Assembly (NCBI GenBank): GCA_900143615.1
Contig: FREU01000007.1
Span: 25,200-89,199 of the forward strand
DNA length: 64,000 nt
Origin: Rhodobacteraceae bacterium Alg231-30
GTDB taxonomy: Bacteria > Pseudomonadota > Alphaproteobacteria > Rhodobacterales > Rhodobacteraceae
Reading direction: 5' to 3'
Below are positions 32,659-38,134 of the stretch, one piece after another; position 1 is the stretch's first letter; each line of letters opens with the position of its first letter. The notes beneath the pieces were generated by a model. The model did no database searches and was not told the DNA's origin. It was given only the letters and a program-made list of their open reading frames with translations. A program made the translations under genes and the position numbers.

Positions 32659-34608
32659 ATGGCCGATATTTCTCTTACTTTCCCTGATGGTAACGCGCGT
32701 TCTTACGCTGCAGGCATAACCGCTGCCGAAGTCGCGAAATCCATCTCGACCTCCCTTGCCAAGAAAGCAATCTCTGCAACCGTAGATGGTCAGCATTGGG
32801 ATATGCAGTGGCCAATTGATGCTGACAGCGCCATCGCGATCAACACCATCAAAGACAATGACGGCGAAGCACTTGAGCTGATCCGCCACGATTGCGCCCA
32901 CGTCATGGCGCGCGCCGTGCAAGAGATCTGGCCTGACGTCAAAGTCACCATCGGCCCAGTCATTGAGAAAGGCTGGTACTACGACTTTGATCGCAGCGAA
33001 CCGTTTACTCCCGAAGATCTCACACTCATCGAAAAGAAGATGAAAGAGATCATCAACAAACGTGAACCTGTGACCACCGAGGTCTGGGATCGTGAGCGGG
33101 CGGTCAAATTCTATGAGGCCAACAACGAACCTTACAAAGTCGAGCTGATCGACGCCATTCCCGGCGACGAGCCGCTGCGCATGTATTGGCACGGTCACTG
33201 GCAGGATCTCTGCCGCGGCCCGCACTTGCAGCATACCGGTCAAATCCCAGCAGATGCCTTCAAGTTGATGAGCGTTGCCGGCGCCTATTGGCGCGGAGAT
33301 TCAGATCGCGCCATGTTGCAGCGTATCTATGGTGTGGCGTTTAAGAACAAAGAAGACCTCAAAGCGCACCTGCACATGTTGGAAGAGGCCGAAAAGCGCG
33401 ACCACCGCAAATTGGGCCGCGAGATGAACCTGTTCCACATGCAGGAAGAAGCCCCCGGTCAGATATTCTGGCATCCAAACGGCTGGACTGTTTATACCCA
33501 ACTTCAGGACTACATGCGTCGCCAACAGTCGCGCGGCGGATATGTTGAGGTCAACACACCACAAGTGGTGGATCGCAAACTCTGGGAAGCATCCGGTCAC
33601 TGGGACAAGTACCAAGAGAATATGTTCATCGTCGAAGTGGATGAGGATCACGCCCGCGAAAAAGCCGTCAACGCGCTCAAGCCGATGAACTGTCCCTGCC
33701 ACGTGCAAATCTTCAACCAGGGTCTCAAGTCCTATCGTGACCTGCCTTTGCGCATGGCCGAGTTTGGCTCATGCGCGCGCTATGAGCCATCGGGTGCATT
33801 GCACGGCATCATGCGTGTGCGCGGCTTTACACAGGATGATGGCCACATCTTCTGCGCAGAGGATCAGATCACCTCGGAAACCAAGAAATTCATCGACTTC
33901 CTGTCCAACATCTATTCGGATCTCGGATTTGACGATTGGACCATCAAACTGTCCACGCGTCCCGAGAAACGGATTGGGACAGACGAAAGCTGGGACTACG
34001 CTGAGAAAGCGTTGGGCGACGCCTGTAATGCGGCAGGCCACGAGTTTGAAATTCTTGAAGGCGAAGGTGCGTTCTACGGACCCAAGTTGGAATTCACTCT
34101 GACTGACGCGATTGGTCGTAGCTGGCAATGCGGTACGCTCCAAGTTGATCCCAACCTGCCGGAACGTCTGGATGCGTCCTATATTGGCGCGGATGGCGAC
34201 AAACACCGCCCCATCATGTTGCACCGTGCGACTTTGGGATCGTTTGAACGCTTCATCGGTATCCTGATTGAAGAACATGCCGGTAAACTGCCGTTCTGGA
34301 TCGCACCACGTCAGGTGGTTGTCGCGGCCATCGTGTCGGATGCAAACGACTATTGTCTTGAAGTTGTTGAAGCTCTCAAGGCTGTGGGCGTGCGCGCCGA
34401 GGCCGATCTGCGCAACGAAAAGATCAACTACAAGGTCCGCGAGCACTCGGTTGGCAAAGTTCCGGTCATTTTGGCGATCGGAAAGAAAGAAATCGAAGAG
34501 CGCACCGTGTCGACCCGACGCCTTGGCGAGAAGCAAACCAAAGTCCAGTCTTTGGACGAGATCGTGAGCCAATTGTCACAAGAGGCGACTCCACCCGATC
34601 TGGCCTAA
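32659..34608 (+). CDS. thrS: Threonyl-tRNA synthetase
   Basis: 649 residues, full length. The domain order is an N-terminal TGS domain (about 1-60), the editing domain with [10 protein letters not shown] and the later [12 protein letters not shown], a class II catalytic core with [11 protein letters not shown] (Zn-binding Cys) and [15 protein letters not shown] (motif 2), and then an anticodon-binding domain (from about 545) containing [12 protein letters not shown]. It charges tRNA-Thr and removes misacylated serine. Confidence 0.98.
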
Positions 34609-34627
34609 GAATTTTTGCAACAAATAT

Positions 34628-34669
34628 ACAGGCGCGACACATCTTTTGTGCCGCGCCTGTTTCATTTTT
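34628..34669 (+). terminator. Terminator of thrS
   Basis: ACAGGCGCG plus CAC (34628-34640) pairs with GTG plus CGCGCCTGT (34648-34660), one internal A-C mismatch, then TTTCATTTTT. Confidence 0.85.
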
Positions 34670-34727
34670 GAAAGAATCCAACCTTCCAGCGCTGTAATCT
34701 TCACGAAACCGTCACGCCAGCTAACGC

Positions 34728-34762
34728 GTCTGTGACACACAGCCCCGTGATTGGTCTGTGAC
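34728..34762. promoter_or_regulatory. Direct repeats GTCTGTGAC upstream of the bufferin-like operon
   Basis: GTCTGTGAC occurs at 34728-34736 and again at 34754-34762, 26 bp apart and in the same orientation. GTCAC at 34711-34715 is an inverted half site. They lie 74-108 bases before the start of the first precursor gene and are candidates for a metal or stress regulator. Confidence 0.4.
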
Positions 34763-34835
34763 GCTTCCCTGCCCCTAAGCTTGTCTCATGCCACATCGTA
34801 AGTGGCCGAGTTTAGTAACCAAAGGGAATATGAAG

Positions 34836-35138
34836 ATGACCACAACAGTAAAAGCTTTCGCAGTCGCCGGTGCCGTAGCAGCAGCCCTGAGCGCCCACGC
34901 CACCACAGCCGTCGCCGCAGAAAAAGAGAAATGCTACGGCGTTTCTATGGCTGGTCAAAACGACTGTGCTGCAGGTGCTGGCACAACTTGCGCCGGCACT
35001 TCGACAGTAGATTATCAAGGCAACGCCTGGAAACTGGTTGACGCTGGTACATGCGCTGGCATGGAACTGCCTGCGATGGCTGACGGCTCTAAGCGTATGG
35101 GCTCGCTGGAAGCTCTGGACCGCGACATCCCTAGCTAA
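34836..35138 (+). CDS. bufA: Bufferin-like RiPP precursor 1 (DUF2282)
   Basis: 100 residues from the ATG at 34836, chosen because AAAGGGA is 8 bases upstream and because the second precursor is also exactly 100 residues; ATGs at 34788 and 34830 are in frame. A signal sequence (about 1-28, ending AVAA) is followed by a small domain with four cysteines at 33, 44, 52 and 73, in the contexts [28 protein letters not shown] and [11 protein letters not shown]2282 proteins next to MNIO enzymes are the bufferin precursors. Modification of their cysteines gives a secreted copper-binding peptide. No cargo leader other than the signal peptide is seen. Confidence 0.88.
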
Positions 35139-35147
35139 ATCCCCCGA

Positions 35148-35189
35148 GAGGCCCCGACGTATCTTACGATACACCCCTCACGGGGCCTC
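35148..35189 (+). terminator. Hairpin between the two precursor genes
   Basis: GAGGCCCCG (35148-35156) pairs with CGGGGCCTC (35181-35189), with an inner GTATC/GATAC stem. No T run follows. It probably lets part of the transcripts end or be trimmed after the first precursor. Confidence 0.5.
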
Positions 35190-35276
35190 TTACCCTCACA
35201 TTCCCACGGCATCGTTGCTCTGTTTACCAATTTTCTGGCAGACTGGCACCATATCCATCTAACACGGAGACACGGC

Positions 35277-35579
35277 ATGCCAATTTCCTCAAAAATTACC
35301 CCCTTCGCCAGCGCGGTTTTGACGGCACTTGCCGCACAAGCGCTTCCTGCCGATGCGGCCACCAAAGAAAAATGCTTCGGAGTAGCCCGTGCGGGGCTAA
35401 ATGGCTGCGCCGCTGGCCCCGGAACCAAATGCGCGGGGACGTCGACCGTGGACTACCAAGGGAACGCTTGGACGTTGGTGGACAAAGGCACCTGTCTGGA
35501 CATCGAACTTCCGGCAACGGCCGATGGATCGCCGCGCATGCCGTCACTTGAGGCAATTGATCGCGACCTCCCAGCCTAA
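35277..35579 (+). CDS. bufA: Bufferin-like RiPP precursor 2 (DUF2282)
   Basis: 100 residues. A signal sequence ends near ADA (about residue 27). The mature part has cysteines at 33, 44, 52 and 73, exactly as in precursor 1, and the shared core [14 protein letters not shown], but the signal sequence and several core residues differ ([14 protein letters not shown]). It arose by duplication and is kept, which argues for a distinct or dose role. The MNIO gene follows 32 bases later. Confidence 0.88.
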
Positions 35580-35611
35580 ACCCTTAGATTCAGCCACCTT
35601 GAAGGTCTGCC

Positions 35612-36469
35612 ATGTTTGATACTGCTCCCAACCCAGACAAACTGCCCAATGGGCCCGGCGTGGGCTACAAGCCTCAACACTACTCCGAAATCATGCAAGA
35701 TCCTGGCGCTGTTTCATGGTTGGAAGTGCACGCCGAAAACTACATGGGCGCAGGCGGACGCCCCTTGGCGCAACTGCGCCATCTCGCGGAACGATTTCCG
35801 ATGTCGGTACATGGTGTAGGTCTATCCATTGGCGGCGAAGATGCGCTGGATCCCGACCACCTTGCCCGCCTCAAACACCTCGTCAGCTGGCTCAAACCAA
35901 CAGTCTTTTCTGAACATCTAGCGTGGTCGACACATGACGGCGCCTTTCTGAATGATCTTCTGCCGCTGCCCTACACCAATGACACGTTGACGCGCGTTTG
36001 TGACCACATCGACCAATTGCAAAACACCATTGCGCGTCAAATGATGCTGGAAAATCCCTCCAGCTATCTGGCTTTTGAAGAAAGCACTTGGTCAGAGCCT
36101 GACTTTCTGCGCGAAATTGCCAACCGCACTGGCTGTGGTCTGTTGTTGGATGTGAACAATGTTTTTGTCTCTGCCACCAATCTCGACTACGATCCGCGCA
36201 GCTACATCGCAGACTACCCGCTTGATAAAGTGGGAGAAATTCACCTCGGCGGTCATGATGAAGACAAAGATGAACACGGTCATACCCTGTTAATTGACAG
36301 CCACGGCAAACCCGTTGTTGATCCCGTTTGGGCGCTGTTGGATCACACTCTGTCACTCAGCGGCCCTCGCCCAATTCTCATAGAGTGGGACAACGATGTG
36401 CCGGAATGGCCGATCTTGAACAATGAAGCTTTGCGCGCTTCTGCCGCGCTTGAGCAGGTCGCTCAATGA
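35612..36469 (+). CDS. bufB: DUF692/MNIO iron-dependent oxidase (BufB-like)
   Basis: 285 residues, a TIM-barrel multinuclear non-haem iron enzyme. The likely metal-site motifs are all present: EVHAEN (38-43), HGVG (67-70), EHLAW (101-105), LENPSSY (146-152), LDVNN (179-183), HLGGH (211-215), DSHG (229-232) and IEWD (257-260). Members of the family oxidise peptide cysteines; in bufferins this yields thiooxazole-type heterocycles. Its stop overlaps the DUF2063 start (ATGA, 36466-36469), as expected for an enzyme-partner pair. Confidence 0.93.
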   Translation: MFDTAPNPDKLPNGPGVGYKPQHYSEIMQDPGAVSWLEVHAENYMGAGGRPLAQLRHLAERFPMSVHGVGLSIGGEDALDPDHLARLKHLVSWLKPTVFSEHLAWSTHDGAFLNDLLPLPYTNDTLTRVCDHIDQLQNTIARQMMLENPSSYLAFEESTWSEPDFLREIANRTGCGLLLDVNNVFVSATNLDYDPRSYIADYPLDKVGEIHLGGHDEDKDEHGHTLLIDSHGKPVVDPVWALLDHTLSLSGPRPILIEWDNDVPEWPILNNEALRASAALEQVAQ

Positions 36470-37221
36470 GCGTCACCCAAACCGAATTCCGTTCCGCTCT
36501 GCTGGATAGCGCGCAACCGCGCCCAAAAGGGCTGGCGGATGCTGAGGGCCACGCGGCAGGACGCCGCTTCGATGTCTATCGCAACAATGTAGCCGTGTCG
36601 CTGAATGACGCGCTGGCCACGGGGTTTCCAACAATCTCCAAGTTGCTGGGTGATGAAAACTTTCGGGCCATTGCCGGTGTGTTTTTACGTAAATCCCCGC
36701 CCACTTCGCCTCTGATGATGCACTACGGCGCCGAGTTCCCCGCGTTTTTGCGCGGTTTTGAACCGCTGGCACATCTCGGATACCTCGGCGACGTTGCGGA
36801 GATGGAATTGGCTCTGCGCCGATCTTACCACGCTGCAGATGCCGATCCGATTGCGCCGGATGCCTTGGCACAAATTCCACCAGATCAGCTGGGCAATGTC
36901 GTTTTCACTTTTGCTCCCTCTGTCGAACTGCTCTCATCGCCTTGGCCAATTCACGCGATTTGGGCGTTTAACATGGCGCAGGGTCCCAAACCCGCCGCTG
37001 TGGCACAGGATGCAATTATTCTGCGTCCCGAGTTTGACCCCAAACCCCATCTTCTGGGGCTCGGCGCGCTGGCCTGTATGAACCATCTCATTGCCGGAAA
37101 AACGCTAACCCAAGCTGCACAATCAGGCACTGCAGCGCACGGCGACTTTGATCTGGGACCCCTGCTCGCACTCTTACTGAGCGGCAACGCCATAACTTCA
37201 CTCACACTCACGGACGAATAA
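36466..37221 (+). CDS. bufC: DUF2063 partner protein (BufC-like)
   Basis: 251 residues. The N-terminal DUF2063 domain is clear from RRFDVYRNNVAVSLNDALA, FPTISKLLGDENFRAIAG and FLRKSPPTSPLMMHYGAEFP. The C-terminal half (about 120-251) is more variable. In MNIO systems this protein type binds the precursor and presents it to the oxidase. The coupled start and the operon context support that here. Confidence 0.92.
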   Translation: MSVTQTEFRSALLDSAQPRPKGLADAEGHAAGRRFDVYRNNVAVSLNDALATGFPTISKLLGDENFRAIAGVFLRKSPPTSPLMMHYGAEFPAFLRGFEPLAHLGYLGDVAEMELALRRSYHAADADPIAPDALAQIPPDQLGNVVFTFAPSVELLSSPWPIHAIWAFNMAQGPKPAAVAQDAIILRPEFDPKPHLLGLGALACMNHLIAGKTLTQAAQSGTAAHGDFDLGPLLALLLSGNAITSLTLTDE

Positions 37222-37250
37222 CACTCACGGACCGAATGGGAGGTTTCACA

Positions 37251-37763
37251 ATGAACCCGATAGCATTGCATAACGAATTGGCTGACCAATTGACAAAAAA
37301 AACATGGCTAATTCCAACGCTTGCACGCGTCACATTTGTCGCGGTCCTATTCGTGTATTACTGGAATTCCGCCACCTTAAAAATCGACGGATCGATTTTC
37401 ACACCGTCTTCAGGTGCTTTCGGTCAAATTTTCCCTAAAGCCGCCGAAGCGGTCTTGTGGGATGTGAGCCAAATGAACATCTTTCAGCGGCTCGTCATCT
37501 TTTTTGGCACAGTCGCGGAATTTGCACTCCCGGTGCTGCTGCTTGTCGGGTTGTTTACCCGTCTCGCCGCATTGGGCATGATCGGCTTTGTGATTGTGCA
37601 AACTGCGGCTGACGTTTTGGGTCACAACGTCAAACTTGGTACGCTGTTTGACAGTTCACTATCCCTAATAGATCAGCGCGCCATGTGGATATTTTTGCTG
37701 CTCGTATTGGTCGCAAAAGGCGCAGGCCCCTTATCATTGGACAGGCTGCTGCGCCTCAAGTGA
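37251..37763 (+). CDS. DoxX-family membrane protein of the bufferin-like operon
   Basis: 170 residues from the ATG at 37251, which has GGGAGG 7 bases upstream; the ATG at 37236 lies before that ribosome site. Four hydrophobic helices are visible (about 22-40, 75-97, 103-120, 133-150). FFGTVAEFALPVLLLVGLFTR is the DoxX signature. DoxX proteins are common partners of DUF692/DUF2063 operons; the role may be electron transfer or export, but this is not settled. Only two bases separate its stop from that of the convergent next gene. Confidence 0.88.
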   Translation: MNPIALHNELADQLTKKTWLIPTLARVTFVAVLFVYYWNSATLKIDGSIFTPSSGAFGQIFPKAAEAVLWDVSQMNIFQRLVIFFGTVAEFALPVLLLVGLFTRLAALGMIGFVIVQTAADVLGHNVKLGTLFDSSLSLIDQRAMWIFLLLVLVAKGAGPLSLDRLLRLK

Positions 37764-37765
37764 GA

Positions 37766-38134
37766 TTAAAAATGCGCCTTTGGTTCGTCAGGTTTCCCTG
37801 CCGCTATTGCCAAAACCCCACCTAGCGCGGCAAAGCTGATCGGGAACATTGTAAAGACGTTAAAGCCAAAGGCCGCATACATTCCCGCGGCTGAAGCCAG
37901 CAACAAAACGCCACCCCACAGAGCTCGCGAGCGCGCCATAGCGCCACCTGCAATTGCCAAAAGCGGTGCTAGCAAAGCCCCAGCGCGCACCAAATTGATG
38001 TTGTCGACCTGTTCAATCAGATCTGGCACTTCGCCGACGCGGTTCACCACTTCGGTGTATCCCCAGCCGAAAAAGCCCACAATCATGCCGATCACTCCGG
38101 CAATAATCCCCAACGTCAGTGCTGCATTGCGCAT
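37766..38134 (-). CDS. Small membrane protein, DUF4064-like
   Basis: 122 residues with four hydrophobic helices: LGIIAGVIGMIVGFFGWGY at the N-terminus, then two closely spaced helices in the middle and one near the C-end. The layout resembles DUF4064 proteins, whose function is unknown. GGAG precedes the ATG. It converges with the DoxX gene without an obvious terminator between them. Confidence 0.7.
   Translation of the reverse strand: MRNAALTLGIIAGVIGMIVGFFGWGYTEVVNRVGEVPDLIEQVDNINLVRAGALLAPLLAIAGGAMARSRALWGGVLLLASAAGMYAAFGFNVFTMFPISFAALGGVLAIAAGKPDEPKAHF

Follow-up and report, generated by a model that had tools for sequence, protein, structure and literature searches.

Bufferins are described as copper chelators (PMC12452194), and the described operons closest to the one reported here are those of Caulobacter, in which CC3254-3257 encode a DUF2282 precursor, a DUF692 protein, a DUF2063 protein and a DoxX protein in this order, and CC2907-2905 encode the first three of these families in the same order (PMC3511200). 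Both Caulobacter operons contribute genes to the list of those that copper induces under every condition tested (PMC8224329). Here we analyze an operon of this kind in Rhodobacteraceae bacterium Alg231-30 (contig FREU01000007.1), which lies on the plus strand of a stretch of 64,000 nucleotides (the window, to which all positions below refer) and which carries two precursor genes, bufA1 and bufA2, ahead of a single gene for an MNIO (DUF692) enzyme, bufB, followed by the gene for its DUF2063 partner, bufC, and by doxX. The reading that we favor, with moderate confidence, is that of a Buf1 operon making two products in two tiers, a bulk BufA1 and a low-level, diverged BufA2.

While each Caulobacter operon, as described, has one DUF2282 gene and is under sigma-F/NrsF control, the locus studied here has two precursors, no match to NrsF and another conserved upstream element. 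A further described system, the captophorins, typified by fontiphorin (FonABC), shares with this locus an MNIO and a DUF2063-type partner, with a 5-thiooxazole on cysteine as the product, and its authors class the bufferins there; FonA is a precursor of EGKCG repeats, whereas the precursors here are non-repeat DUF2282 proteins with four cysteines (PMC13097082). Published bufferin clusters also include some with more than one precursor gene in tandem, and some MNIOs have been suggested to have more than one substrate (PMC12452194). Since both the tandem arrangement and the multi-substrate idea are already in that source, the bare pair is not the new variation that a sequence-only reading of this locus had taken it to be. 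The novelty lies in the second precursor, a distinct and conserved paralogue that occupies a place of its own in the operon; in the parts of PMC12452194 that were covered, no such paralogue lineage, hairpin or expression tiers are described, and the words “hairpin” and “terminator” are absent from its main text.

Profile searches with the DUF2282, DUF692, DUF2063 and DoxX models all gave matches above cut-off, in agreement with the five plus-strand genes and families first assigned by the sequence-only reading. The genes bufA1 (34830-35138, 102 amino acids, 85.2 bits) and bufA2 (35277-35579, 100 amino acids, 75.9 bits; Pfam cut-off 22.4) both encode DUF2282 precursors with four cysteines and N-termini that are signal-peptide-like by eye; the two proteins share 76% identity over 70 residues, and BufA2 has NGC in place of NDC at the second cysteine (Cys2). 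The product of bufB (35612-36469, 285 amino acids) matches MbnB_TglH_ChrH (PF05114) at 348 bits, with a cut-off of 25, as well as the NCBIfam model NF050167 (MNIO_BufB), which names it “MNIO family bufferin maturase”, at 372.4 bits, with a cut-off of 310. For bufC (36466-37221, 251 amino acids), the DUF2063 score (PF09836) is 89.2 bits against a cut-off of 27.2, and the NCBIfam score for HvfC lies under the equivalog cut-off (46 vs 142 bits). The doxX gene (37251-37763), encoding a DoxX-family membrane protein of a kind often present in Buf1 operons, passes the DoxX cut-off only marginally (PF07681, 24.3 vs 23.6 bits) and falls under the HvfX equivalog cut-off (27.1 vs 80 bits). The 4-nucleotide overlap of bufB and bufC, which share ATGA at 36466-36469, fits the proposed coupling of oxidase and partner. 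The start of bufA1 is most likely at 34830 (or 34836) rather than at 34788, the start of the longer open reading frame, and that of doxX, preceded by GGAGG, is most likely at 37251 rather than 37236. As the open reading frame after doxX is on the opposite strand and ends 2 nucleotides away, the unit is taken to end at 37763.

Genome-wide (4.54 Mb in 10 contigs), DUF2282 is matched twice and the MNIO profile (PF05114) once, each time within this operon. By profile, gene order and genome-wide count, it is near certain that this is a Buf1-type (DUF2282) bufferin operon with two precursors and one MNIO, as had been proposed. The MNIO has relatives among solved structures, and its His, Glu and Asp residues align with those of 3bww, 8hci and 7dz9 (MbnB) over the aligned stretches (for 7dz9, residues 87-268 only). 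The metal-site motifs claimed for the enzyme are in place as aligned residues with putative roles as metal ligands. Comparison with solved structures gave only chance-like matches for BufC (best E 0.18) and none below E 0.05 for BufA1, and there was no Rfam match within the window.

In a family sample of 394 genomes, with up to 16 candidates scored per genome, DUF2282 was detected in 279 genomes and was matched twice in at least eight. Three of the latter, the source genome (G000), G100 and G204, carry the BufA2-type tandem. In G007, the adjacent genes are sister copies, near-identical in their core, and both stand ahead of the hairpin described below; the two copies of G327 lie about 800 bp apart, and the second match of G233, G296 and G348 is on another contig. 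Within the genus, DUF2282 is present in 25/25 genomes and the tandem pair in 14 of them, with a third copy elsewhere in the genome of G397 and G415. Named loci were collected through their MNIO, keeping the best 80 of 575 confirmed stretches. Among these, the closest named MNIO is 82% identical (Shimia sp.), which suggests that the source is a roseobacter belonging to Shimia or close to it, and the tandem was found in two loci, one from Shimia sagamensis (L017) and one from an uncultured Shimia (L015), whose rows are identical to G401 and G415, respectively. Also among these best 80 of 575, a contig labeled Nocardioides marinus (L027) bears a roseobacter-type bufferin operon whose MNIO falls inside the roseobacter part of the tree, reflecting either a mislabeled assembly or a transfer. 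Precursors were gathered with a pattern requiring Cys1, Cys2 and, with His allowed, Cys3, together with eight hand-picked sequences that the pattern missed, so unusual second copies may have escaped it among the 80 named loci; the partial match G348b was excluded.

The precursor tree, built from 81 of the 136 collected sequences on 101 columns and hence of limited resolution, places 18 tandem second copies and two stand-alone third copies in one clade (bootstrap 99, Shimodaira-Hasegawa-like approximate likelihood ratio test 86). This A2 clade takes in second copies from two other genera, three genera in all. The BufA1 first copies group among the single-copy bufferins, and the pairs of G007 and G327 are duplications separate from the A2 clade. 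On this tree, bufA2 is an old paralogue lineage of its own. A recent dosage duplication, which fits G007, is ruled out for the operon studied here by the separate A2 clade, which spans three genera. On the MNIO tree (71 rows, quick method, excluding G100, whose MNIO is cut off), the presence of an A2-type gene requires 5 changes, compared to 15.3 by shuffling; either one gain with several losses or transfer may account for this. The two stand-alone members of the clade, L135 (G415 C15:11178) and L136 (G397 C38:26144), have NHC at Cys2, and inspection by eye of open reading frames of at least 100 amino acids in their surroundings (5.5 kb) recognized no metal gene or MNIO.

Residues that set BufA2 apart were identified by comparing 18 distinct A2-type sequences with 109 distinct others, which comprise BufA1 proteins, single-copy bufferins and the second bufferins of G007 and G327. 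At column 43, immediately before Cys2, 103 of the 109 others have Asp, while the A2-type sequences have Gly (14), His (3) or Asp (1). Column 89 is Gly in 104/109 others vs Pro in 17/18 A2-type sequences, and column 74, after Cys4, is Leu in all 18 and mixed in the others. The four cysteines are invariant in the 127 distinct sequences, for Cys1 and Cys2 partly by construction of the collecting pattern, and all 41 precursors that Pfam detects in the genus have the four at the same spacing. In peptides of the Buf1 type, modification falls on the central cysteines, and a disulphide joins the outer two (PMC12452194). As the published mechanism is read (PMC13097082), the thiooxazole ring incorporates the peptide bond that precedes the cysteine, so the change at column 43 touches the neighborhood of the product. 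DUF2282 sequences are said to show little conservation around the cysteines (PMC13097082); among the relatives sampled here, one precursor set is strongly conserved around them and the other set is shifted.

A second line of evidence comes from a hairpin directly behind bufA1 (35146-35191, plus strand), in which an 11-bp, G+C-rich stem pairs 35146-35156 with 35181-35191 (z -5.15; 1 of 200 shuffles was as stable) and which is a candidate partial terminator or mRNA stabilizer. The fold at the bufA2-bufB junction has a z of 0.81. Scanning the 60 nucleotides after each stop codon for folds with z below -2 relative to dinucleotide shuffles, we found a hairpin after 18/20 first copies, 70/92 single bufA genes and 2/20 second copies, these two being G007 and G327, and after none of the 18 A2-clade genes. 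One of four stand-alone or second-operon copies has one, with no hairpin below z -2 at L135 or L136. The first copies without a hairpin are those of G007, which has none between its copies, and G100 (z -1.77). Within the genus the division is complete: A1 14/14, single bufA 11/11, A2 0/14. A stem of at least 10 pairs stands at the same place in 27/27 genomes (25 of the genus including the source, G204 and G100) with 21 distinct left arms, and in 24 of these at most 2 of 60 mononucleotide shuffles match the stem, G394, G400 and G204 failing this comparison. RNAalifold gives eight pairs, seven of them with changes on both sides; for each pair, between 0 and 6 sequences have a break or a gap. Where the genus has the tandem (14 genomes), 10-32 nucleotides separate the bufA2 stop codon from bufB, a gap too short for such a hairpin. 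The claim of one plus-strand unit thus stands for the strand of all five genes, and the hairpin makes a single uniform transcript no given.

The puf operon of Rhodobacter has a similar intercistronic hairpin. Internal stem-loops with long G+C stems and few U residues also occur in clostridial ABC-importer operons, where they follow the first, abundantly needed product and hold the downstream genes low or set ratios (PMC9045158); that case differs in protein family and phylum, and the effect on RNA is here a prediction from sequence. A hairpin after bufA, seen also in 70/92 single-copy rows, would explain how a stoichiometric metal-binding peptide could be made in excess over an enzyme encoded in the same operon.

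In a close set of seven genomes chosen by hand (21 pairs), silent change in bufA1 is about one third of that in bufA2 and bufB, and because of this low value a test of codon use was made. Codon weights were taken from four ribosomal genes of the source genome (L2 identified by Pfam; S19, L22 and S11 by eye) and applied to all genomes. Codon adaptation is 0.725 for bufA1, 0.519 for bufA2, 0.525 for bufB and 0.514 for bufC, the bufA1 value exceeding the best of the 30 open reading frames of at least 250 amino acids in the window (0.666; chance frames included). The first precursor gene scores above the second in all 14 tandem genomes of the genus (medians 0.721 and 0.561, with bufB at 0.58), and bufA scores above bufB in all 11 single-copy genomes. 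Relative to sequences drawn at random from the codon usage of bufB, z exceeds 2 for A1 or single bufA in 24/25 genomes and for A2 in 0/14. From hairpin position and codon bias, which are independent lines, we infer two expression tiers, with ribosomal-type bias in bufA1 and the bias of an enzyme gene in bufA2.

Taken together with the published relatives, these results suggest the following scheme. By analogy with those relatives, BufB and BufC would convert the two central cysteines of each precursor to 5-thiooxazoles in the cytoplasm, and the peptides, once exported through Sec, would close a Cys1-Cys4 disulphide and bind surplus copper in the periplasm. BufA1 would be the bulk buffer, the hairpin behind its gene ending or protecting most transcripts so that substrate is made far above the level of the enzyme, and bufA2, past the hairpin and immediately before bufB, would be expressed at about enzyme level. 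The replacement of Asp by Gly or His next to one modified cysteine would probably give BufA2 a thiooxazole with another metal affinity or partner, making it a minor product with its own job rather than extra buffer. Both the expression levels and the separate job are what we infer here; a separate function is suggested by purifying selection and by changes shared across the clade, one of which adjoins the modified cysteine, and plain redundancy may apply instead. A more specific version, in which the BufA2 lineage would be a low-abundance thiooxazole peptide with changed surroundings at the modified Cys2 that delivers or senses copper instead of buffering it, so that one MNIO serves a bulk sink and a specialized carrier in a ratio set by the hairpin, is speculative and on present grounds unlikely. 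The operon offers a defined case for testing a multi-substrate MNIO, having two precursors in one operon that differ cleanly next to a modified cysteine, and the genus offers a natural series of 14 genomes with the second gene and 11 without it, for which the ratio prediction is clear.

Several observations count against this two-tier reading and bear on two of its alternatives. The first alternative is that BufA2 is a spare copy, receiving the same modification and buffering copper in the same way under weak dosage selection and easily lost, which we consider doubtful while giving it some weight. Its patchiness speaks for it: A2 is missing from 11 of the 25 genomes in the genus and its distribution takes 5 changes on the MNIO tree, which makes BufA2 dispensable, and a plain dosage duplicate is known in the family (G007). 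So does the close set of genomes, where summed dN/dS (nonsynonymous over synonymous change) is 1.747/21.239 for A2, 0.320/7.633 for A1 and 0.963/25.448 for bufB, so that protein change relative to silent change in A2 is about twice that in A1, the many dS values >1 making all of these rates rough. Median dN/dS over the usable pairs is 0.122 for A2 (37/120), 0.115 for A1 and single bufA (337/351) and 0.094 for bufB (181/300). As far as such rates indicate, BufA2 is constrained by purifying selection, and whether it is more loosely constrained than A1 depends on the set. This constraint argues against a spare copy, as do the conserved residues that mark the clade at columns 43, 74 and 89, and so do the ordinary codon use of bufA2 and its place behind the hairpin, which fit low dosage. 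One A2-type sequence, that of G399, retains Asp before Cys2, and in the unusually long (280-nucleotide) gaps of G404 and G405 a local alignment looking for a decayed bufA2, as a sign of loss, was no better than with shuffled sequence. Regarding substrate tolerance, FonBC takes Ala, Arg and Thr before the cysteine and is poor with Glu and Phe, Gly not being among the variants named (PMC13097082), and FonBC therefore gives weak guidance for BufB, which meets Asp before the cysteine in its main substrate. A peptide with two cysteines changed by -8 Da with FonBC (PMC13097082), and by analogy about -8 Da would be predicted for each bufferin, with a further -2 for a disulphide.

The other alternative concerns the hairpin, which in this case would be a full terminator, with bufA2-bufB-bufC-doxX forming a second, separately regulated unit under its own promoter in the A1-A2 spacer. 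A strong hairpin would suit this arrangement, and the spacer (35192-35276 and its counterparts in relatives) contains a TG..ATACT-like stretch that could be an internal extended -10: TG is present in at least 16 of 18 spacer rows with an ATACT-like stretch after it, and the longer pattern is found in 9/16 tandem spacers. We regard a second unit as unlikely, as a consensus scan gave no sigma-70-like site in the spacer and no excess over chance in 34500-37900 (2 found vs 1.7 expected), and the hairpin lacks a U-tract. A scan with the intrinsic-terminator consensus likewise found no plus-strand terminator at 35146-35191, the tail being ACCCTCAC, and few hairpins run into a tail rich in T (4 or more in 8 positions), namely 3/20 after A1 and 18/92 after single bufA. 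Because the U-tract is mostly absent, the hairpin is not a textbook terminator and termination at it is putative, which weakens the two-tier reading as well.

The two-tier reading also has to be set against the idea that BufA2 is a non-buffering client that paces or stabilizes the BufBC pair, for instance by staying bound as a substrate and keeping BufBC occupied until BufA1 is made. Precursors co-purify with the BC pair in related systems (PMC13097082), and bufA2 both adjoins bufB at 10-32 nucleotides and has enzyme-like codon use. Given that 11/25 genomes manage without bufA2 and that stand-alone A2-clade copies in G415 and G397 lie away from any recognized MNIO, this is a very improbable role. 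Regarding the metal, copper might not be what the operon mainly serves, the candidates in its place being gold, silver, mercury, oxidative stress and sulphur stress, since related operons respond to chromium and cadmium (PMC3511200), those of Cupriavidus respond to gold and silver, though also to copper (PMC8224329), and bufferin-MerC fusions and DoxX have been taken as hints of other stresses (PMC12452194). The copper induction of Caulobacter operon genes under all conditions tested (PMC8224329) and the description of bufferins as copper chelators (PMC12452194) make this improbable.

Finally, an upstream element at 34712-34754 (plus strand), with its core at 34732-34754 (GTGACACACAGCCCCGTGATTGG), has the consensus GTGAnnCAC-N5-CGTGAnTGG with TnAC before it. 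The core was found with at most 2 mismatches in 82/108 bufA upstream regions vs 0/108 shuffled regions (one shuffle each), the other 26 having 3 to 7 mismatches; stand-alone copies and duplicate regions were excluded from the 108. Its end lies about 21 bp upstream of a TAnnnT of moderate conservation, which corresponds in the profile of the 82 sites to TAAGCT at 34776-34781 (plus strand), a possible -10 of the operon promoter. The element is probably the site of a putative activator. Its core is the sole exact copy in the 4.54 Mb genome, and the genome as a whole has 12 matches within 2 mismatches vs 3 for a reversed control. The one-mismatch match (L146) sits at the start of a coding frame and was taken as chance, and inspection of the ten two-mismatch sites, as sequence only, established no regulon member. 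SigF/NrsF control is a feature of some Buf1 clusters but not of every one. In Caulobacter, the SigF/NrsF motif is GTAACC-N16-CGAA (PMC3511200). A sigma-F-like match at 34815-34840 has two mismatches and overlaps the start codon, and a sigma-F promoter as in Caulobacter was rejected, as NrsF had no match in the source genome and sigma-F-like sites are no commoner in the window than by chance (48 vs 41 expected). The SigF/NrsF control of Caulobacter does not seem to be carried over here.

Two minor observations concern other genomes of the genus. One MNIO is present in 24/25 of them and two in G409, where a second MNIO operon (L137, C5:71000-76000) has a short multi-Cys precursor resembling Buf2 (6-Cys) and an adjacent DUF2063-like open reading frame, both typed by eye. 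In G210, G402, G404, G405 and G413, the aligned 190 nucleotides upstream of bufA differ from those of the other genus members beyond the conserved element, and the operon may sit elsewhere in these genomes.

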